Source: Kiritimatiellaceae bacterium
GTDB lineage: Bacteria; Verrucomicrobiota; Kiritimatiellia; Kiritimatiellales; Tichowtungiaceae
Length of the DNA: 64,000 nt
Reading direction: 5' to 3'
NCBI GenBank assembly: GCA_013141415.1
Contig: JABFQY010000007.1
Coordinates: forward strand, 1 to 64,000
Shown here: positions 21,322 through 49,978 of the stretch, in pieces
Layout: each line of letters opens with the position of its first letter
Position numbering within the stretch: the first letter of the stretch is position 1
Position numbers and translations under genes: made by a program
Notes under the pieces: model-generated
Seen by the model: the letters and a program-made list of their open reading frames with translations, nothing else
The model's database searches: none
Told to the model about the DNA's origin: nothing

Positions 21322-21363
21322 GTAGCCGCGATCCATGATCGCGGAACCGAGGTCAAGGACCTC
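21322..21363. repeat. Truncated GTAG-type REP pair
   Basis: GTAG, an 8-bp hairpin (21326-21344, loop CAT), an AA spacer, and a second hairpin with loop AAG that stops after 6 bases of its right arm. The missing CGG-CTAC end is replaced by hsdS-derived sequence. It is the exact reverse complement of the full element at 62268-62315. Confidence 0.85.
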
Positions 21364-21423
21364 CACCAGTTTCTGCTCGGCTTCAATCTCGGCGACGATG
21401 GCTTGCTGTTCCGCCTTTAGAAT
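21364..21423 (-). pseudogene. Fragment of an hsdS 3'-terminal copy (first unit)
   Basis: About 60 bases nearly identical to the part of the hsdM-hsdS gene encoding the Ala-Glu-Gln-Gln-Ala-Ile-Val-Ala-Glu-Ile-Glu-Ala-Glu-Gln-Lys coiled region. The rest of the copy was lost at the junction with the truncated REP. Not expressible as a protein. Confidence 0.8.
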
Positions 21424-21487
21424 GTAGATGCGACGCCCTCGTCGCGTTCGAATGAATGGGAAAACGCGACGAGGGCGTCGCGTCTAC
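21424..21487. repeat. GTAG-ended long palindrome, copy 1
   Basis: Inverted repeat with 25-base arms (21424-21448 and 21463-21487, one mismatch) and a 14-base loop. Each arm itself folds as a hairpin around CCCT/AGGG. The ends are GTAGA and TCTAC. Repeated 201 bases further at 21625. Confidence 0.92.
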
Positions 21488-21624
21488 GTTGGACAGCCCC
21501 AGATGCGGGCGAGGGTGGTTTTGATTTTCTGCTCGAAGCGGGTGATCAGTTCGCGGTTGGCGGCCACCAGCTTTTGCTCGGCTTCAATCTCCGCTACGAT
21601 CGCCTGCTGCTCCGCCTTTAGAAT
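21488..21624 (-). pseudogene. Tandem copy of the hsdS 3' end (second unit)
   Basis: 137 bases closely matching the last 43 or so codons of the hsdM-hsdS gene at 21685. They still encode Ala-Glu-Gln-Gln-Ala-Ile-Val through Arg-Ile-Trp-Gly-Cys-Pro-Thr and end at a TAG supplied by the neighbouring palindrome. It differs from the intact copy by a few substitutions and has no methylase or target-recognition sequence. A remnant or tandem duplication rather than a gene. Confidence 0.85.
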
Positions 21625-21688
21625 GTAGACGCGACGCCCTCGTCGCGTTCGAATGAATGGGAAAACGCGACGAGGGCGTCGCGTCTAC
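21625..21688. repeat. GTAG-ended long palindrome, copy 2
   Basis: Perfect 25-base arms (21625-21649 and 21664-21688) around the same 14-base loop as the copy at 21424. Its right end overlaps the hsdM-hsdS gene: the TAG stop codon (21687-21685 on the minus strand) is part of the element's GTAG. Confidence 0.93.
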
Positions 21689-24240
21689 GTTGGACAGCCC
21701 CAGATGCGGGCGAGGGTGGCTTGGATTTTCTGCTCGAAGCGGGTAATCAGTTCGCGGTTGGCGGACACCAGTTTTTGCTCGGCTTCGATCTCCGCGACTA
21801 TCGCCTGCTGCTCCGCCAGCGGCGGCAGAGGGAATTTAATTGCACTCAGGTCGTCGGTGTTGATCTTCAGAGTGCCGTGCGCGGCGGTTTCTAAAATCTT
21901 CCGGAACTGCGGCTCTTCTTGTTTCAGCATCACCCTGAGAAACGTTGAATTGACCGACGCGTGCGGCTTCATCGCCTTTACGTCTTGGTTGAAGGCGCAT
22001 GGTTTCGCGAGTTCACAGATTGGCACTCCGTTGGCGAGACCCATACCCCGAACAAGAATCAAAAGCGAACCAACGGGCGCGATTTGCGTGGCGCTTTCTT
22101 TGACAGCGGCTTTCGAAACGTGGGTTGAAGCATCCGACAACACATCGGATTTCATATCCTTGGCCGAGACCCACGGGATGTCGCCAATCCAATAGGATTC
22201 ATTGGCCTTTGATGGCGTTCCACCGCTGCTGTAGCTAACGACGTTCCCCAATTCCACCATCGGCCAGTCGGGGTGGATGGGGATGTGGGGGCGGTAGTGG
22301 TCGAGGACGGCGCGGGCACCGTTGATGACTTTCTGGTAGCCCTCGATCTCCGCCACGATCTCTTTCTGTATTTCCAGCGGCGGCAGGGGGATTTCAAACT
22401 TGTTCACATTGGCGACGGTGATCATGGGAATCCCGACGCCCTCGGTAATTGTCTTGAAGTCAAACGCCTTCAGCCAGTGATATAGGAACTCAGGCAAAAT
22501 TCGCTCCACGGCTGCCGTGATTGCGATGGTCGTTTGAGTGCATGTGAAGCAATCGCGATTGGGAAACTTCACCGAGCCGATTGTGCCACGCGCACCAATT
22601 ACGAGAGTGTTTTTTCCAAATGACAACCGGGTTGGCTCACTGAAAGCCCACGGCTCATCTGACGAATCGGCACTGAAGATGGCTTTCCCTTTGCCGGTCA
22701 GGTCGCCCTTGATCAGAGTTTCGCCCATTCGGACTTCCGCAATTTCCTCCAGCAAGACCCGTGGGTAGATGGAGTGCTGCGTGACGCCCTCGCGGTAGCG
22801 CTCGCCGGAGAGGTTGTAGTCGCCGTTGGCGGCGATTTTGGATTTGGGGACGATTTGGGTGTTGCTGTAGGCCGGGTCCCCTGACCCGGCGTCTGACAAG
22901 GGAACGCCGCGTGGGGGCACGCGGCCTACATCCGCAACCCCCGCCTGATTGTCGACAGGATCCCTTGACTCGGCAACGCCGCGTGGGGGCACGCGGCCTA
23001 CATTGAAATATCCTTTGAGAAACGTGGCGGCATCCGGCAGGTCGCTGCCAGCAACGGCGCGGCGCTGGGCGCCGAGGCCGTAGCCGTCGTTTTCGATTTT
23101 GACGAAGGCGATGGTGTCGGATTTTTTCGCCAGCGCTTTGTCGAGAATCAGGATGCTGGTCTTGACGCCGGAATAGGGATTGAAGCAGCCCGCCGGGAGC
23201 GAGACGACGGCGACGAGCGAATTTTCGACCAGCATCTTGCGCAGCTGTTTGTAGGCGGTCTGGCTCTGGAAGATGATCCCTTCGGGGACAATGATGGCGG
23301 CGCGTCCGGTGGGCGTGAGGTGTTCGGCCATGTAGTCCACGAAGAGCACTTCGCTGCGCTTGGCCTGAATGGAGAAACGCTTGTGCGGCTTGATGCCGCC
23401 TTTCGGCGACATGAAGGGCGGGTTGGCGAGGATGACGTCGGCGTATTCATTCCAGCGTTCTTCGGAGGTGAGGGTGTCGTACTCGACAATATGCGGGTCG
23501 GCGAAGCCGTGGAGGTAAAGGTTGACCAGCGAAAGGCGCACCATGTCGGGCGAAATGTCATAGCCACGGAAGTTTTTGGCCATTTTGCCGCGCTCGTCGG
23601 GGGTCAGCGGTTTGGCGGACGGATTTGCCCGATTGGACGGATCGTGAGCTTTCAGGATGTGTTTGTAAGCGGAGATGAGAAAACCGGCGGTGCCGCAGGC
23701 GGGATCGAGAATCACTTCACCTTTTTTCGGCGCGATGACCTCGACCATGAAGTCGATGATGTGGCGCGGCGTGCGGAACTGTCCGGCGTCGCCCTGCGAG
23801 CCGAGGACGGAGAGCAGATATTCAAAAGCGTCGCCGAGCTTTTCGCTGTGGTCATAGGTGAACCCGTTGATGATCTTGAGGAAACTCTTGAGCGTTTCGG
23901 GGTCGCGGTACGGCAGGTCGGCATCTTTGAGAATGTCGCGGAAGAGCGGCGGGATGCCGGGATTCTCCGGCATTTTCGCCAGCCCTTCTTTGTAGAGGTC
24001 GCGCATTTCGTGTCCGCCGAGCGACGGGCTCATCAGCTTGGCCCAGCCGTAGCGGGCGAACTCCTTGGTGAAGAACTTGCGCTTGCCGCCCAGCTCCTCG
24101 GCCTCGGCATCCATGTCGTCCATGAACTTGTAGATCAGGGCGATGGTAATCTGCTCCACCTGCGATTTGGGGTCGGGCACCTTGCCGACGAGAATATCGC
24201 GGGCGGTGTCGATGCGGCGTTTGGTTTCTGAGTCGAGCAT
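21685..24240 (-). CDS. hsdM: Type I restriction-modification methylase fused to specificity subunit (HsdM-HsdS)
   Basis: 851 residues. HsdM part: an N-terminal helical region, SAM motif I Asp-Pro-Ala-Cys-Gly-Thr-Ala-Gly-Phe (179-187), and catalytic motif IV Asn273-Pro-Pro-Phe276, typical of N6-adenine methylases. From about residue 470 an HsdS-like part carries two target-recognition domains. Each is followed by a conserved helix (Pro-Leu-Pro-Pro-Leu-Glu-Ile-Gln and Pro-Leu-Pro-Pro-Leu-Ala-Glu-Gln-Gln). The start ATG at 24240 begins the conserved N-terminus; the longer open frame upstream overlaps the next gene. REP-like palindromes are inserted in frame at about residues 413-458, and the stop codon lies in another palindrome. 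hsdM and hsdS are usually separate genes. Confidence 0.93.
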   Translation of the reverse strand: MLDSETKRRIDTARDILVGKVPDPKSQVEQITIALIYKFMDDMDAEAEELGGKRKFFTKEFARYGWAKLMSPSLGGHEMRDLYKEGLAKMPENPGIPPLFRDILKDADLPYRDPETLKSFLKIINGFTYDHSEKLGDAFEYLLSVLGSQGDAGQFRTPRHIIDFMVEVIAPKKGEVILDPACGTAGFLISAYKHILKAHDPSNRANPSAKPLTPDERGKMAKNFRGYDISPDMVRLSLVNLYLHGFADPHIVEYDTLTSEERWNEYADVILANPPFMSPKGGIKPHKRFSIQAKRSEVLFVDYMAEHLTPTGRAAIIVPEGIIFQSQTAYKQLRKMLVENSLVAVVSLPAGCFNPYSGVKTSILILDKALAKKSDTIAFVKIENDGYGLGAQRRAVAGSDLPDAATFLKGYFNVGRVPPRGVAESRDPVDNQAGVADVGRVPPRGVPLSDAGSGDPAYSNTQIVPKSKIAANGDYNLSGERYREGVTQHSIYPRVLLEEIAEVRMGETLIKGDLTGKGKAIFSADSSDEPWAFSEPTRLSFGKNTLVIGARGTIGSVKFPNRDCFTCTQTTIAITAAVERILPEFLYHWLKAFDFKTITEGVGIPMITVANVNKFEIPLPPLEIQKEIVAEIEGYQKVINGARAVLDHYRPHIPIHPDWPMVELGNVVSYSSGGTPSKANESYWIGDIPWVSAKDMKSDVLSDASTHVSKAAVKESATQIAPVGSLLILVRGMGLANGVPICELAKPCAFNQDVKAMKPHASVNSTFLRVMLKQEEPQFRKILETAAHGTLKINTDDLSAIKFPLPPLAEQQAIVAEIEAEQKLVSANRELITRFEQKIQATLARIWGCPT
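22867..22929. repeat. GTAG...CTAC REP pair inside hsdM-hsdS
   Basis: GTAG, hairpin GCCGGGTC-CCCT-GACCCGGC (22871-22890), a 15-base spacer, hairpin GCCGCGTG-GGGG-CACGCGGC (22906-22925), CTAC. It is read through in frame on the minus strand as Val-Gly-Arg-Val-Pro-Pro-Arg-Gly-Val and flanking residues. Confidence 0.92.
22951..23001. repeat. Second, half-degenerate REP pair inside hsdM-hsdS
   Basis: The right hairpin GCCGCGTG-GGGG-CACGCGGC (22978-22997) plus CTAC is identical to that of the element at 22867. The left hairpin has decayed (GGATCCCTTGACTCGGC). It also encodes Val-Gly-Arg-Val-Pro-Pro-Arg-Gly-Val in frame. Confidence 0.88.
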
Positions 24241-24256: not shown

Positions 24257-24985
24257 TTAAACTTTGGCAACGCCTTTGCAGTCGGGATAGCCGGTGCAGC
24301 CCCAGAACTGCTGGCCGGCGTTTTTGCCGGATTTGGCGGTTCGCAATACCGTTGGTTTCCCGCACTGCGGACAGGCCGGGATTTTATCAGACGGTTTCGC
24401 GGCGCGTTTGGCCAGCCGGGCGGTGGCGAGCTGTTCGCTGTAGCCGCCGCCTTCGATAAACTGCGCTTCGAGCGCGGCAATCTGCTGGTCGAGCAGGTAA
24501 TTGGCCTGGTTAATCAGGCAAATCAAGGCATTGGCCCGCACGGCGGAGTCGGCGTGCTCCAGCCAGGGCGCGTAAAGCGCCCACCTTGCCTGATCTGACA
24601 GATCAGTCAGATTGGACTGATCGGGCGAATCCTGTTTGAAATTGCGGGGGACATTGCGCACGGCCAGCGCTTCGGGGCTGTCGGGGTTCCACTTCGTGAG
24701 ACGGCGATGGCGCAGGAAGTCTTCGTAGTCGAGCAGGAGTTCTTCGAGGCTGGCGCGGGCGACGTTCACCAGCCGGAGTTCGGTTTGCGAAGAGGTTGCG
24801 GCGGCGCGGCTGCCTTCGGCGATGTTCTGCCGTCCGGAGCGGGCGGCCTGCACCATCTGATCCACCGTGCGGGAGCGCGGGTCGAGAAACTTTTCGCAGA
24901 ACCAGACGGTGGCATCATAGATCACGGTAGAGGTTTGAAAACTGCATGTCTCCCGGTAGCCGCCGCTGGGTCGTATTTTCGCCAT
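24257..24985 (-). CDS. Four-helix-bundle suffix-domain protein with C-terminal topoisomerase-type zinc finger
   Basis: 242 residues. The N-terminal half resembles four-helix-bundle (S23/IVP-like) proteins: Arg-Thr-Val-Asp-Gln-Met-Val-Gln-Ala-Ala-Arg-Ser-Gly-Arg-Gln-Asn-Ile-Ala-Glu-Gly, then Leu-Glu-Glu-Leu-Leu-Leu-Asp-Tyr-Glu-Asp-Phe. The C-terminus is a Cys4 finger of the topoisomerase I type (Cys-Pro-Gln-Cys-Gly-Lys ... Phe-Trp-Gly-Cys-Thr-Gly-Tyr-Pro-Asp-Cys). From memory such proteins are annotated as 'four helix bundle suffix domain-containing' and occur in type I R-M loci. It sits 13 bases after hsdR and 16 before hsdM-hsdS, so it is part of that operon. Its role in restriction is unknown. 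Confidence 0.8.
   Translation of the reverse strand: MAKIRPSGGYRETCSFQTSTVIYDATVWFCEKFLDPRSRTVDQMVQAARSGRQNIAEGSRAAATSSQTELRLVNVARASLEELLLDYEDFLRHRRLTKWNPDSPEALAVRNVPRNFKQDSPDQSNLTDLSDQARWALYAPWLEHADSAVRANALICLINQANYLLDQQIAALEAQFIEGGGYSEQLATARLAKRAAKPSDKIPACPQCGKPTVLRTAKSGKNAGQQFWGCTGYPDCKGVAKV
24590..24622. repeat. Overlapping palindromes within the four-helix-bundle gene
   Basis: CTGATCTG-A-CAGATCAG (24590-24606) overlaps GATCAGTC-AGATTG-GACTGATC (24601-24622). Read in frame it encodes a Ser/Asp/Gln-rich insert (Pro-Asp-Gln-Ser-Asn-Leu-Thr-Asp-Leu-Ser-Asp-Gln) between the helical and zinc-finger parts. Confidence 0.75.
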
Positions 24986-24998
24986 AGTCGTTATTCCT

Positions 24999-27527
24999 CT
25001 AAGCCGCAAACTGGTTGAGCGGAACGTAGTCTTTGACGTATGCAGGAATCAGGTCGCGGTATTTCTTCGGCACGGCTTTGAAGTCGCGGACGGAAAAGAC
25101 CGGATTGGTGGCGAGGTCGGCGAATTCCTTTTCGTCGATGATGTGGCGGACGAGCCCGTCGGTAACGTAGGCCTTGAAGTAGGTCTTAATCGCCGGAATG
25201 GCTTCGGCTTCGTCGGGCTTGGCGTCGGCGACAAATTTGGCGAATTCCTCTTCGAGCAGTTCGTCCTTGGATTTGAAGCGCGGAATGAGCCCGAAGGCTT
25301 TCTCCAGAATTTCGCGCAGCGTCAGCAGCCGATCCACGGAGGCGGCTTTGCGCAGTTTGTCGAGGGTGTAAAACTGCTCCGGCTTGTCGAAAACCTCGCG
25401 GTTGACGTAATCAATGACGCGCTCCCACTGTCCCGCTTCAACCGCGTCGGCGACGGTCGCGTTTTCGCGCAGGGTGTCCTCAAATTGCTGGAAGAACATC
25501 CGGTCGATCTTCATGCCGCCGTAGCCGATGGTTTCTTCTTTGATCGTTTCGAGCAGGTCTTCGCCGGTGTGGTCGTAGAGGCCGCCGGACGGTGGCGGCG
25601 GATTCGGGCCTTCGCCGCCTTTGCCTTTCGGGCGCGGAAGCTTCAGCACTTCGTCGTAGTTAAATTCCTTCTCGAAGTATTCGCAGTTGGCAAAAAAGTC
25701 GAAGAGCTTGAAGGCGGATTTCAGCGGCTTTTCGACATGCTCTTTGATCGTTTCGTCGAAGAGCTCTTCGCGGAAGTCGTGCTTGCGGGTGCCGCGCCCT
25801 TTGATCTGAATGAAGTCCGTCGGAGAAAAGACCGGGCGGAAGAGGCCGAGATTGAGAATGTCGGGGCAGTCGTAGCCGGTGGTCATCATGCCGACGGTGA
25901 CGCAAACACGGGCCTTGCTGGTTTTATAGGCGGGGATGACATTCGATTCGCCCAGCAGCTTGTTATTGGCGAAGTTGATCGTCATCTGCTGGGCGTCGGG
26001 AATCTGCGAGGTGACCTGCACGGCGAAGTCCGACTGGTATTTTCCGGGGAACATGCGGTCAGCCATCTGATTGAGAATCTGAGCCAGCTTGGCGGCGTGG
26101 TTCTGGCTGACGGCGAAGACAATCGACTTGCCGATTTCGCCGCTGACCGGATCGCGCAGGGCGTGCTCCAGAAAGGTTTTGCAGAAAAGCCGGTTGGTGG
26201 CATCGGCGAAGAAACGCTTCTCAAACTCGCGCTGTTTGAAGGCTTCCTGCTGATCTTCACCGGCATCATCGGTGAACGAGACGATGAATCCTTTTTCGGA
26301 AAGCAGTTCGGTGGTGATTTCCGTGCGGGCGTCCACAACCGTCGGATTGATCAGAAACCCATCCTTTACGCCGTCGAGCAGGGTGTAGCGGAACGTCGGC
26401 TGGCTGTTTTCGCAGCCGAAGGTTCGGTAGGTGTCAAGCAGCAGGCGGCGTTCGGTTTCACGCGGGTCGCGGGTGGTCGGCGAGGATTTGCTGAACCGTT
26501 TGAGATAGTCGCGCGGCGTGGCGGTGAGGCCGAGTTTATAGCCGATGAAGTAGTCGAAGACGGCGCGGGCATTGCCGCCGATGGAGCGGTGCGCTTCGTC
26601 GGAAATGACCAGATCAAAGTCGGTCGGCGAAAAGAGCCGCTGGTATTTGTTGTTGAAGAGCAGTGATTGCACGGTGGTAACGACGATTTCGGCGTGCCGC
26701 CAGTCGTCGCGGTTTTCTTTGTAGATGACGGTTTTGAAATCGGAGGACAGCAGGGCCGTGAACGCTTTTTTGGCCTGATCCTCCAGTTCGAGGCGATCCA
26801 CCAGAAACAGCACGCGCCGGGCATTGCCGGAGCGGAGAAAAAGTTTGATGACGGCGGCGGCGGTGAGCGTTTTGCCGGTGCCGGTCGCCATCTCAAACAG
26901 AAAGCGGTCTGCGCCATCTTTGACCGCCTGTTGCAGAGAATGCATGGCTTTCAACTGATAGGGCCGCAGGAAACGCAGCTTGTTGGTCTGGATGTAGCCG
27001 GGACGTTCGGCCGCGTTGCGCCACGCCGCTTCGGACTGATAGTTCGGACGCTGGGTCAGCACGATGTAGTCGGCGCCGACCTGATCTTTGACGAGGCGTT
27101 GCGGATCCGGTGCGGTCTGTTTGTAACCCGTCACGGACTCCGGCGAAGGAAAGGATGTGATGTGGTATGGATTGCCGCGCTCCAGATCCCAGAAGTAGTG
27201 CAGGTTGCCGTTGGAGAGAATGACGAACCGGCAGTTCTGGGACTTGGCATATTTGCGGGCCTGTTCTTTGCCGACGAGCGGGTTTTTGTCCTCCGCTTTG
27301 GCCTCAAGGATGATCAGCGGAAAGCCTTTGCTGTCCAGCAGCAGGAAGTCGATGAATCCTTTGCCCGCTTTCTCAAAGTTTTCGCCGAGTCCGTCGAGCG
27401 CCTGTTTGGTGAGTGTGACGCTGGGTTCGAGCTGAATGTTTGCGGGACTGCCGGCGTCCGCGAAGAAACGCCAGCCGGCCTCTTCGAGCAGTTTGTTGAT
27501 TTTGATGCGGGCGGCGGCTTCTTTCAT
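24999..27527 (-). CDS. hsdR: Type I restriction endonuclease subunit R
   Basis: 842 residues. An N-terminal PD-(D/E)xK nuclease domain has Asp in Phe-Ile-Asp-Phe-Leu-Leu-Leu-Asp and Glu-x-Lys in Ile-Ile-Leu-Glu-Ala-Lys. The SF2 helicase follows with Walker A Met-Ala-Thr-Gly-Thr-Gly-Lys-Thr, DEAH-type Ser-Asp-Glu-Ala-His-Arg-Ser, Gly-Leu-Thr-Ala-Thr-Pro and motif VI Gln-Ile-Lys-Gly-Arg-Gly-Thr-Arg. A helical C-terminal EcoEI-type domain ends the protein. R translocates and cuts unmodified DNA with the M/S complex. The ATG at 27527 starts the conserved region; the longer frame adds residues from repeat-like upstream sequence. It is the first gene of hsdR, four-helix-bundle gene, hsdM-hsdS. Confidence 0.95.
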   Translation of the reverse strand: MKEAAARIKINKLLEEAGWRFFADAGSPANIQLEPSVTLTKQALDGLGENFEKAGKGFIDFLLLDSKGFPLIILEAKAEDKNPLVGKEQARKYAKSQNCRFVILSNGNLHYFWDLERGNPYHITSFPSPESVTGYKQTAPDPQRLVKDQVGADYIVLTQRPNYQSEAAWRNAAERPGYIQTNKLRFLRPYQLKAMHSLQQAVKDGADRFLFEMATGTGKTLTAAAVIKLFLRSGNARRVLFLVDRLELEDQAKKAFTALLSSDFKTVIYKENRDDWRHAEIVVTTVQSLLFNNKYQRLFSPTDFDLVISDEAHRSIGGNARAVFDYFIGYKLGLTATPRDYLKRFSKSSPTTRDPRETERRLLLDTYRTFGCENSQPTFRYTLLDGVKDGFLINPTVVDARTEITTELLSEKGFIVSFTDDAGEDQQEAFKQREFEKRFFADATNRLFCKTFLEHALRDPVSGEIGKSIVFAVSQNHAAKLAQILNQMADRMFPGKYQSDFAVQVTSQIPDAQQMTINFANNKLLGESNVIPAYKTSKARVCVTVGMMTTGYDCPDILNLGLFRPVFSPTDFIQIKGRGTRKHDFREELFDETIKEHVEKPLKSAFKLFDFFANCEYFEKEFNYDEVLKLPRPKGKGGEGPNPPPPSGGLYDHTGEDLLETIKEETIGYGGMKIDRMFFQQFEDTLRENATVADAVEAGQWERVIDYVNREVFDKPEQFYTLDKLRKAASVDRLLTLREILEKAFGLIPRFKSKDELLEEEFAKFVADAKPDEAEAIPAIKTYFKAYVTDGLVRHIIDEKEFADLATNPVFSVRDFKAVPKKYRDLIPAYVKDYVPLNQFAA

Positions 27528-39584: not shown

Positions 39585-39637
39585 GTAGGCCCGCTGCCCT
39601 CAGCGGGCGTTTGCGCCGGGTGGGGCACCCGGCCTAC
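39585..39637. repeat. GTAG...CTAC REP pair at the end of the glycosidase-like gene
   Basis: GTAG, hairpin GCCCGCTG-CCCT-CAGCGGGC (39589-39608), spacer GTTTGC, hairpin GCCGGGTG-GGG-CACCCGGC (39615-39633), CTAC. The CTAC end overlaps the neighbouring gene: its TAG stop codon (39636-39634, minus strand) is part of the element's GTAG. Confidence 0.93.
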
Positions 39638-46480: not shown

Positions 46481-47020
46481 GAATGCATCTTGCACATTGA
46501 TCGAGTCGGTCTTGAAGCGGGCGAGCGTGTTTACAAATGATCGTGGCGCGTTTTGTTCCAGCCAGCGCTGGGAACACCATTCATAGGAAGACGCATCTTC
46601 CGTGACACCATGATGAACCGGATTCTGATGAATGTACCGCAGGCGGCTAAAGAAAGACGTTTGGTGGGTAATGTGCGAATCCCAGTAATTGTGCCAGACT
46701 TTGCGTCCGGTTGCGCCGTCCATCCGGTTCAGCTTTTTGGCGCTGTATTCATGAAGCTGGGCGATGAGTGTTGTTAACGACTCTGGAGTGTCCGGCGAGC
46801 TGGAAATGACGTGGTAGTGATTGTTCATTACCGCCCACGCTTGGAGTTGCCAGTTATATTTCTTTGCCAGCTCGAAAAGCATATCGCGCACAAGCGACCG
46901 CTTTTCCGGAGCATTCAAAATCGGTTGTTTAAGATATATCCCGCCGGTCACCATGTACGTTCCCCGCTCCAGCAATCGGTGCATTGGCGCATGTGGCCAG
47001 TACGAAGAGATTTCTTTCAT
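46478..47020 (-). CDS. REP-associated tyrosine transposase (RAYT, IS200-like Y1 family)
   Basis: 180 residues. The N-terminal part has the Y1_Tnp start (Thr-Tyr-Met-Val-Thr-Gly-Gly-Ile-Tyr). The HUH metal site is Met-Asn-Asn-His68-Tyr69-His70, and a candidate catalytic Tyr is Tyr129 in Leu-Arg-Tyr-Ile-His-Gln-Asn-Pro-Val. RAYTs are single-copy HUH enzymes that recognise and process REP hairpins. Palindromes of one family lie at both ends (46331-46480 and 47039-47124), the expected arrangement of a RAYT with its cognate REPs. All visible key residues are intact, so it could be active. Confidence 0.9.
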   Translation of the reverse strand: MKEISSYWPHAPMHRLLERGTYMVTGGIYLKQPILNAPEKRSLVRDMLFELAKKYNWQLQAWAVMNNHYHVISSSPDTPESLTTLIAQLHEYSAKKLNRMDGATGRKVWHNYWDSHITHQTSFFSRLRYIHQNPVHHGVTEDASSYEWCSQRWLEQNAPRSFVNTLARFKTDSINVQDAF

Positions 47021-47038
47021 GGAAAGAAATTAAGAGAT

Positions 47039-47785: not shown

Positions 47786-49936
47786 ATTCTTTTTTCTGGT
47801 TTGCCGTTCCATGCCTTTGGCTCCGGCGGAACGGGCGGCGAGGTCGTTATCAATTGCGTGGCGGATGGTTTTTGCGCCGAGTCCGCGTGTTCCGATTAGA
47901 AATTCTTCCAACAGTTGCGCGAGGCGCGTTGGTGTGAATCCGAAGGTGGTGTGCGTCTGTTCGTAAATCCAGTTGCTCCATTCCATGAAGGCAGCGAAAA
48001 CGGATGGCTGGTTCTGCCAGATCAGTTTGGAGGTTTCCGGGAACCGTCCGTTATTGACGATGATGTCCCAGAAGCGGGCAAAGCGGCGGAGCTGTTGCAG
48101 TTCGATAAAACTCAGCGCGGCGGTTTGCAGTACGTCGTACGGCGGCGACGTATTATAAACCATCTGCCATGCGACATCGTGTTTGGCGATCGGCGCGCCG
48201 CGTAGTTTTTTCAGAATGCCAAGCTGGATCTCGTCCGGCCCGCAGGCGTGCAGCCGATCAAAACCTGCCGCGATGCTTGCCAGTGTTTCGCCGGGCAATC
48301 CGGCGATCAGGTCGGCGTGCAAATGAACCGACGGCATGGCGGCGAGGGTGCGGATATGTGCTTCAACTTTTTCCGCGTCGAGCGGGCGGTTAATCCGTTT
48401 GGAAACTTCGGGGTTGAACGTCTGTACGCCGACTTCAAGCTGGAGAAATCCCGGCGGCGCTTCCGCGATCAGCTTTTCGAGTGTCGGCGGCAGATGTTCC
48501 GGTTCCCATTCGAGGTGGAGCATCATGCCGTCACGCCGGTTTTCTAGAAAGAAGCGCAGGACGGCGGCGGCGTGCGCGGCGTTGATATTGAAACTGCGGT
48601 CGAGAAATTTAAAAATCCGCACGCCGCGTTCAATCAGTTTTTCAAACTCCGGGAAAATCCGTTCCGGCGGAAAGAAGCGGACGGTTTCGTCGAGCGCGGA
48701 AAGACAATATTCGCAATGGAACGGACAGCCGCGCGACGATTCGACGTAGATACGGCGGTGGGCGATGTCGTCGGCGGTGTATTCGTCGTAGGGCAGGGCG
48801 ACGGTTTTCAAATCGGCGGGCGGCGCTTCGATCACTTTCGGCAGCCGAGACTCAAGACAAGGCAAGCGGGACGCTTGCGGTACGGCAGATGTATCGCAAG
48901 CGTCCCGCTTGCCTTGTCTCACCTCTTCGCCGTATCCGGCTTTGGCCGGGTTGTTCCTGATGTAGTTGCGGATGCGAAGCAGCTCTTCCATGTCCCGGAC
49001 AATATGGTCATAACTTTCATGCTTCCAGACGTCACCTTTTTGTCCGGTGACTTTGTTGATCGCATGGGCTGAGTACGATTTCCAAGAGTGCAGGATGTCT
49101 TTGAGCTCAAAACCAGGAAGCGGCGTTGCCAGTGCGTGAACATGATTTGGCATGATGACCCACTCGTCGAGCTCGTAGCGTTCGCCATCAAAGTGAGCCA
49201 GCGTGTCAGCGACGATTTTAGAGATGTCCGGTTTGCCGAGAATGCACGCTCCGGCACCTTCATCCAGCCATCCGTTCACTTTCTCCGAAAAGAGCTCGTC
49301 AAATTGCGTCTGCTCGCTTTCGGTATAGGGAGGGAGATGATGTTCCTTCCATTTTTCGCGCAGTTCTTTGTATTCGCTGATGTGCGATTGGGCAATGGAA
49401 TCGGCGAGACGGAAGGTGACAAAGTAGGTGCAGTCGGTCTGAGCCCAGTGCGGAAGGTTTTTGCGGCGGGATTGGCGGACTTCTTGAACCGGATTGAAAC
49501 AGGGCAAGCGGGACGCTTGCGATACGGCGGATGTATCGCAAGCGTCCCGCTTGCCTAGGAGCGTTTGGCATATCTCTTCGATTACTGCTTCGCCTTCGCC
49601 GCAGATCAGGTGGTCGGCGATGTGGAAGAGAGTCAGGTTTGTGTATTCGTAGCTGACTTCCGGCCCGCCGATGACGATTTTCAGATCCGGGCGGACGGTA
49701 CGCAGGATGGCGGCGGTTTCGGCGGTGACGGTCAGGTTCCAGATATACACGCTGAAAAGGACGATTTGCGGATTGTGCGCCAGCAGTTTTTCGGCAGCAG
49801 CCTGCGGAGAGAGGCTGTTGTCGAACTCAACGATGATTGAGCGGTCGTGCAGGTCGCCGAGATTGGCCCGCAAACAGCGCAGGGCGAGCGCGGTGTGGGA
49901 ATAGCGGGCATTAAACGTTGAGAAAACAATGTCCAT
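47783..49936 (-). CDS. B12-binding radical SAM protein (DUF4080-like) interrupted in frame by a RAYT transposase
   Basis: 717 residues in one open frame. Residues 1-127 are a cobalamin-binding-like domain (Ile-Val-Ile-Gly-Gly-Pro-Glu-Val, Cys-Gly-Glu-Gly-Glu). Residues about 128-360 are a complete RAYT: Phe-Val-Thr-Phe-Arg-Leu-Ala-Asp, the HUH site Met-Pro-Asn-His265-Val-His267, and candidate Tyr325 in Asn-Tyr-Ile-Arg-Asn-Asn-Pro. It is bordered by near-identical peptides Gly-Lys-Arg-Asp-Ala-Cys-Asp-Thr-Ser-Ala-Val. Residues 398 onward are radical SAM (Cys404-x3-Cys408-x2-Cys411) with a C-terminal DUF4080-like region. Without the insert the protein would be about 480 residues, near the family norm. 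The insert sits in the variable linker between the two domains. Confidence 0.88.
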   Translation of the reverse strand: MDIVFSTFNARYSHTALALRCLRANLGDLHDRSIIVEFDNSLSPQAAAEKLLAHNPQIVLFSVYIWNLTVTAETAAILRTVRPDLKIVIGGPEVSYEYTNLTLFHIADHLICGEGEAVIEEICQTLLGKRDACDTSAVSQASRLPCFNPVQEVRQSRRKNLPHWAQTDCTYFVTFRLADSIAQSHISEYKELREKWKEHHLPPYTESEQTQFDELFSEKVNGWLDEGAGACILGKPDISKIVADTLAHFDGERYELDEWVIMPNHVHALATPLPGFELKDILHSWKSYSAHAINKVTGQKGDVWKHESYDHIVRDMEELLRIRNYIRNNPAKAGYGEEVRQGKRDACDTSAVPQASRLPCLESRLPKVIEAPPADLKTVALPYDEYTADDIAHRRIYVESSRGCPFHCEYCLSALDETVRFFPPERIFPEFEKLIERGVRIFKFLDRSFNINAAHAAAVLRFFLENRRDGMMLHLEWEPEHLPPTLEKLIAEAPPGFLQLEVGVQTFNPEVSKRINRPLDAEKVEAHIRTLAAMPSVHLHADLIAGLPGETLASIAAGFDRLHACGPDEIQLGILKKLRGAPIAKHDVAWQMVYNTSPPYDVLQTAALSFIELQQLRRFARFWDIIVNNGRFPETSKLIWQNQPSVFAAFMEWSNWIYEQTHTTFGFTPTRLAQLLEEFLIGTRGLGAKTIRHAIDNDLAARSAGAKGMERQTRKKN
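48855..48919. repeat. Palindrome at the distal end of the nested RAYT
   Basis: 29-base arms (48855-48883 and 48891-48919, one G-T mismatch) around a 7-base loop. Each arm has the core GGCAAGCGGGACGCTTGC. The core and loop match the copy at 49503, in the same orientation. Confidence 0.95.
49503..49555. repeat. Palindrome at the proximal end of the nested RAYT
   Basis: Perfect 23-base arms (49503-49525 and 49533-49555) around a 7-base loop. On the minus strand it encodes Gly-Lys-Arg-Asp-Ala-Cys-Asp-Thr-Ser-Ala-Val-Ser-Gln-Ala-Ser-Arg-Leu-Pro within the radical SAM frame. Confidence 0.96.
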
Positions 49937-49978
49937 GAGCTACAAATACGCGCTTTATCCAAGGTTGAGGAGAGAAAA

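Follow-up and report, generated by a model that had tools for sequence, protein, structure and literature searches.

A palindromic insert within a fused type I methylase and specificity gene

The stretch of DNA analysed here (hereafter the window) comprises 64,000 nucleotides, positions 1 to 64,000 of contig JABFQY010000007.1 in the Kiritimatiellaceae bacterium assembly GCA_013141415.1. It carries on its minus strand a fused HsdM-HsdS gene (hsdMS) with GTAG palindromes in its interior, for which the following features were called.

21688–24240, minus strand: fused HsdM-HsdS (type I methylase plus specificity) coding sequence, from ATG with the stop codon excluded, 851 aa (Pfam and 80 full-length homologues)
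22867–23001, minus strand: entire in-frame insert, HsdMS residues 414–458, disordered linker (homologue alignment, a relative's locus, AlphaFold2)
22867–22890, plus strand: left GTAG REP (P1 family) of the first pair, GTAGGCCGGGTCCCCTGACCCGGC (pattern search, folding)
22906–22929, minus strand: right GTAG REP (P1 family) of the first pair, GTAGGCCGCGTGCCCCCACGCGGC (pattern search, folding)
22950–22974, plus strand: decayed left REP of the second pair (19 of 25 bases match 22866–22890)
22978–23001, minus strand: right GTAG REP (P1 family) of the second pair (pattern search)

Pfam placed N6_Mtase at residues 133–388 of HsdMS and Methylase_S from residue 497, and the insert lies between the methylase core and a conserved NGDYNLSGERY segment that precedes the first recognition domain. 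P1 elements carry GTAG 5′ of a short imperfect hairpin; the first pair has the layout GTAG-hairpin ... hairpin-CTAC and folds as DNA into two 8-bp hairpins (z = −4.2 versus dinucleotide shuffles), with its right half recurring at 22978–23001 (minus strand) at 92% over 38 nt. A first-pass annotation of this DNA had described two BIME-like elements at 22867–23001, the second of them half-decayed, and its coordinates proved right, the region consisting of a complete pair, a decayed left half and an intact right half. We also confirmed its reading of the GTAG REPs as translated in frame, since on the minus strand the insert encodes VGRVPPRGV...VGRVPPRGV..., the peptide being present twice.

Aligning the homologues bore out the proposal that residues ~413–458 are an insert, as they are missing from homologues, including the closest relative found (G013; 89% identity up to residue 412), which has no REPs in a linker that is 31 aa shorter (63 aa versus 94 aa in the window). 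None of the 80 homologues showed the case named in that annotation as counting against an insert, namely these residues in another phylum with no palindromic DNA. Its claim that the REPs interrupt a continuous methylase region did not hold, as the linker is naturally variable in length and predicted to be disordered: the span from LGAQRR to NGDYNLSGERY varies freely (median ~45 aa across the 80 homologues, from many phyla), and AlphaFold2 (43 sequences) gave pLDDT < 50 at residues 417–457, flanked by a helix (401–416) and a strand (461–465). Because different palindromes occur there in other lineages (two CCTGGGGCAACGCCCCAGG hairpins in a Candidatus Nitrotoga linker, z −7.0; an inverted GGAGCGCGGACACTC pair in that of a Verrucomicrobiaceae assembly, z −3.2), we read the linker as a recurrent landing place rather than a broken conserved region.

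Three observations made around this gene stand on their own. The linker holds unrelated repeat-like peptides (PGATPQ, DPSDRSD, NYELRITN) in eight HsdMS homologues from other phyla, the Nitrotoga and Verrucomicrobiaceae ones among them. A further HsdM segment, HDPSNRANPSAKP, was dropped as a suspected insert since it showed no net insertion versus the homologue consensus. Between hsdM and hsdR, an ORF at 24257–25009 (minus strand) has a first part that resembles a four-helix-bundle protein fused to a zinc-ribbon, with the repeat-like peptide SPDQSNLTDLSDQAR.

REP families P1 and P2 across the window and genome

The P1 pattern returned 29 strict matches in the 2.2 Mb genome and 53 with 2 mismatches, versus 0 for a reversed control, and P1 is therefore not a chance repeat. 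Its 53 copies lie mostly in close inverted pairs, as do those of a second family, P2. Further members in the window, none with an assigned strand, were as follows.

39585–39637: another P1 REP pair (pattern search)
21625–21688: P2 REP pair, GTAGACGCGACGCCCTCGTCGCG, at the hsdMS 3′ end (fold z −9.9)
21424–21487: second P2 pair, downstream of the hsdMS stop (fold z −9.7)
21363–21817: hsdS 3′ end together with a P2 pair, present in 2.3 tandem copies (201 bp) (repeat analysis)

The TAG stop of hsdMS (21687–21685) is supplied by the GTAG of the P2 pair at 21625–21688. Neither this second family at the hsdS 3′ end, nor its donated stop, nor an in-frame transposase at 48896–49465 (see below) featured in the first-pass annotation. 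The tandem repeat may be a trace of hsdS 3′-end replacement. Within 21363–21817, each spacer of the repeat was seen to hold a strong P2 palindrome pair.

A cognate RAYT (REP-associated tyrosine transposase) flanked by the same REP was seen for P2, whose REPs border a RAYT in priA. Near the RAYT regions inspected, no P1 REP lay close, the nearest being ~1.7 kb away, and no RAYT was seen in the HsdMS of relatives (80 homologues plus 5 relatives' loci).

In-frame REPs in other conserved genes

Inspection of REP sites around pattern matches in the genome showed that hsdMS has company. Genes with in-frame REPs included those for a UvrD-type helicase, U32 peptidase, RNA pseudouridine synthase, aconitase, PabB-like and EpmA-like proteins, a radical SAM/methyltransferase, photolyase, HemL, MetG, an AddB-like nuclease and, by inspection, a HAD-like hydrolase, while TilS holds two in-frame REP pairs and a Mur ligase one P1 and one P2 pair. 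Compared with solved homologue structures, TilS has ~25 extra residues at its P2 pair, a clear insert; for HemL, MetG and the EpmA-like protein, the comparison shows no clean insertion, the REP instead taking the place of a variable segment or lengthening it. A REP near the genome's own leuS was rejected as an in-frame case, being upstream of the start and intergenic.

Counted among the sites inspected, the HsdMS insert is thus one of about twenty in-frame REPs in conserved genes of this genome, and an oddity of a known kind. Many REPs of the genome are intergenic, as usual. The first-pass suggestion that the insert is exceptional, GTAG REPs being usually extragenic, was not supported here: many REPs of this genome are translated as part of conserved genes, and GTAG REPs inside genes have been on record since 2013 (PMC3733652).

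RAYT transposases embedded in host genes

Y1_Tnp matched the genome 11 times, and 3 of the 11 matches were embedded in longer open frames and flanked on either side by host domains, the hosts being PriA (1040 aa), XseA (647 aa) and a B12-binding/radical-SAM/DUF4080 protein (718 aa). The last of these lies in the window.

47786–49939, minus strand: B12-binding/radical SAM/DUF4080 protein with embedded RAYT, 718 aa (open frame, stop to stop; Pfam)
48896–49465, minus strand: RAYT domain in this gene (in frame; HUH and catalytic Tyr kept)
49499–49552, minus strand: repeat of family P3, KRDACDTSAVSQASRLPC, N-terminal to the RAYT (translation; same peptide at other RAYTs)
48857–48910, minus strand: repeat of family P3, KRDACDTSAVPQASRLPC, C-terminal to the RAYT (translation)

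Along the 718-aa frame, Pfam resolved B12-binding at residues 10–123, Y1_Tnp at 253–330, Radical_SAM at 400–556 and DUF4080 at 591–704. A second, apparently separate RAYT-like gene (46481–47029, minus strand; 183 aa, Y1_Tnp) lies ~2 kb from the embedded one.

Beyond this genome, one RAYT subtype sits mostly in frames of 500–1200 aa (40 relatives), and a by-eye count among the matches listed for 388 genomes of the phylum put about a third (52 of ~156) in frames of at least 540 aa. Most genomes compared are metagenome assemblies. Hosts checked across the phylum comprise LeuS, ValS, CarB, MetH, IspG, NspC, HypF, CmoB, MvaD and CCA transferase, along with several HsdR and Eco57I/MmeI methylases from restriction-modification systems. 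Not every long frame qualified: four (L345, L371, L377, L378) were rejected as merely neighbouring RAYTs or chance frames, and left out of the embedding count were a further long frame (L361) and three C-terminal neighbours (L269, L272, L274), although the latter are rows in the RAYT tree. As a side observation, Eco57I/MmeI methylases and HsdR were frequent embedded-RAYT hosts in the phylum (seven loci).

Despite the RAYT, XseA, HypF, PriA, LeuS, ValS, MetH, IspG, NspC, CmoB and MvaD score above NCBIfam equivalog cut-offs, and the interrupted leuS, with its RAYT between profile positions ~360 and 370 of 843, is the only match over the cut-off in 4 genomes (97–98% complete). All 38 RAYT copies that are complete have the HUH motif, and each of the 40 rows compared carries the catalytic-Tyr motif, HUH being absent from only two partial rows (L272, L274). 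RAYTs were over the cut-off of Pfam PF01797 and scored 53–87 bits against NCBIfam NF047646, exceeding its 80-bit cut-off in four cases (LeuS L352, IspG L365, MetH L366, L374).

Alternating states at the PriA site

Among relatives, the PriA linker that follows KKQLxVSL is empty in five and otherwise holds REP pairs, single REPs, remnants, or a RAYT of clade A or clade B (one genome, G003, was placed in clade B by borders and sequence rather than by RAYT tree). These states require 13 changes on the PriA tree versus a shuffled mean of 13.9, and the state of the site therefore shows almost no link to descent. One family has a clade A RAYT with a REPIN at either border. A relative, G025, carries exactly one REPIN of this kind, a state to be expected if recombination between the borders removed the RAYT or if the RAYT arrived at a REPIN. 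The RAYT shows dN/dS of 0.055–0.16, like the flanking PriA and with dS near saturation, which indicates that the embedded PriA RAYT is under purifying selection.

As an observation apart, the N-terminal part of the RAYT in this genome's own PriA frame (C3:504500–508500) holds a further in-frame P2 pair (RDEGVVST-EDN-VDATPSSH), that is, a REPIN nested in a transposase nested in PriA.

Interpretation and alternative explanations

We consider it very probable that the insert is a REPIN/BIME in a tolerant linker and belongs to a lineage-wide residence of REPs and RAYTs in frame in housekeeping genes, where they come and go at the same sites. A REPIN/BIME would here be two inverted GTAG REPs acting as the non-autonomous partner of a RAYT, an HUH single-strand transposase. 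One copy would have landed in the HsdMS linker that leads from the methylase core to the first recognition domain, and a partial duplication of this first pair would have given the second, now decayed, pair. Survival would follow from a length that keeps the frame and a linker that is disordered and tolerant; the peptide would have no specific job, leaving the gene ‘decorated’ and not regulated.

Elsewhere in the lineage, REPs and entire RAYT genes would likewise be kept in frame within surface loops of housekeeping genes and be translated as additional peptide or an additional domain. In vitro work on E. coli and others has established that RAYTs cleave and join single-stranded REP DNA (PMC8266576). 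The RAYTs here most likely cut and join such DNA in the same way, seeding REPINs and occasionally whole REPtrons, and in essential genes the survivors would be only those insertions that keep frame in a tolerant loop. For the RAYT, an indispensable host gene would likely guarantee transcription and translation and make imprecise loss lethal. From sequence, we infer that cells produce the chimeras in active form, that REPs are moved by the RAYT and that residence in essential genes is advantageous. A bolder proposal, which in our judgement could equally well prove right or wrong, is that a class of RAYTs lives, and is expressed, as an in-frame domain of indispensable proteins (PriA, LeuS, ValS, MetH, others), spreads in a homing-like manner into related alleles at one and the same site and, when lost, leaves in-frame REPINs behind, the hsdMS insert being a by-product.

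Vertical descent could instead account for the PriA and LeuS chimeras, each stemming from a single ancient insertion that became a domesticated, no longer mobile part of the enzyme. The RAYTs do group by host gene (9 changes for 10 groups versus 22.5 when shuffled), and purifying selection fits such a history as well, but at PriA close relatives switch between two RAYT lineages and alleles that are REP-only or empty, and we regard this explanation as unlikely. Removal of the in-frame segments before the host protein works, through intron-like RNA or intein-like protein splicing, would account for single-site persistence, patchy distribution and lineage switching at PriA, which resemble inteins and group I introns. 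However, the reading frame stays open through both junctions and REP-only alleles keep it with different residues, neither of which splicing would need; a variable leftover is tolerated, so that splicing is not required, and no intein domain appeared among the Pfam/NCBIfam family matches of the chimeras. We hold splicing to be very unlikely.

We see little chance that the hsdMS REPs form a recombination or phase-variation device that alters specificity. hsdS genes are shuffled in some bacteria, and the hsdS 3′ end is here tandemly repeated with P2 pairs, yet the ORF list of the region holds no second full hsdS and the same REP families occur in unrelated housekeeping genes. It is extremely improbable that HsdMS has here an ordinary segment with a function of its own, such as a regulatory or DNA-contacting linker, that is palindromic by accident: the segment is translated in frame in a gene that looks intact, but near-identical DNA lies elsewhere in the genome outside hsdMS, disorder is predicted for it, and the homologues that lack it, including the 89%-identical relative, contradict this reading.

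The wider setting matters more than the insert itself. Transposases normally destroy the genes that they enter. Here, catalytically complete (by motif) and selected transposases appear to be tolerated inside indispensable enzymes, including a sole leucyl-tRNA synthetase. Empty, REPIN-only and full alleles at one site offer a natural experiment on the origin of REPINs from RAYTs and their dependence on them, and bear also on the persistence of mobile DNA that lacks horizontal vehicles and on which protein loops will accept a folded domain. They carry a warning for annotation too, as chimeras labelled PriA or LeuS hide transposases.

Relation to known systems

The sections of Di Nocera et al. 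2013 (PMC3733652) on genomes such as Opitutus terrae describe GTAG palindromes, often dimers of 20–30 aa, in frame in linkers or loops of repair, tRNA and RNA-modification genes, sometimes donating a TAG stop. Our elements share with these the GTAG tag, the in-frame loop or linker location and the stop donation, and differ in repeat families and host genes; RAYT genes inside host reading frames, as found here, are not among the cases those sections describe. The likeness to Rickettsia palindromic elements drawn in the first-pass annotation stands insofar as both place palindromic repeats in frame in unrelated genes, and fails in that the RPE-4/RPE-6 class is CGTC-tagged with no transposase association, whereas the elements here are GTAG-tagged with RAYTs in the genome. 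Inteins and homing elements are alike in their one-site residence in essential genes and in their patchy, switching distribution; unlike them, the insert here appears to stay in the protein.

A full-text search of the openly licensed literature returned no report of a RAYT in frame within an essential gene, and one survey left out TnpA proteins that were longer than expected, treating them as fusions or as errors of annotation (PMC6006769). In-frame REPs are known, and entire RAYTs in frame inside indispensable genes apparently unreported. With REPtrons/RAYTs (TnpA-REP, group 2 and 3), the embedded elements share an HUH and Tyr transposase flanked by REPs, but described REPtrons are separate genes, whereas the RAYT here lies in frame inside a conserved host gene.
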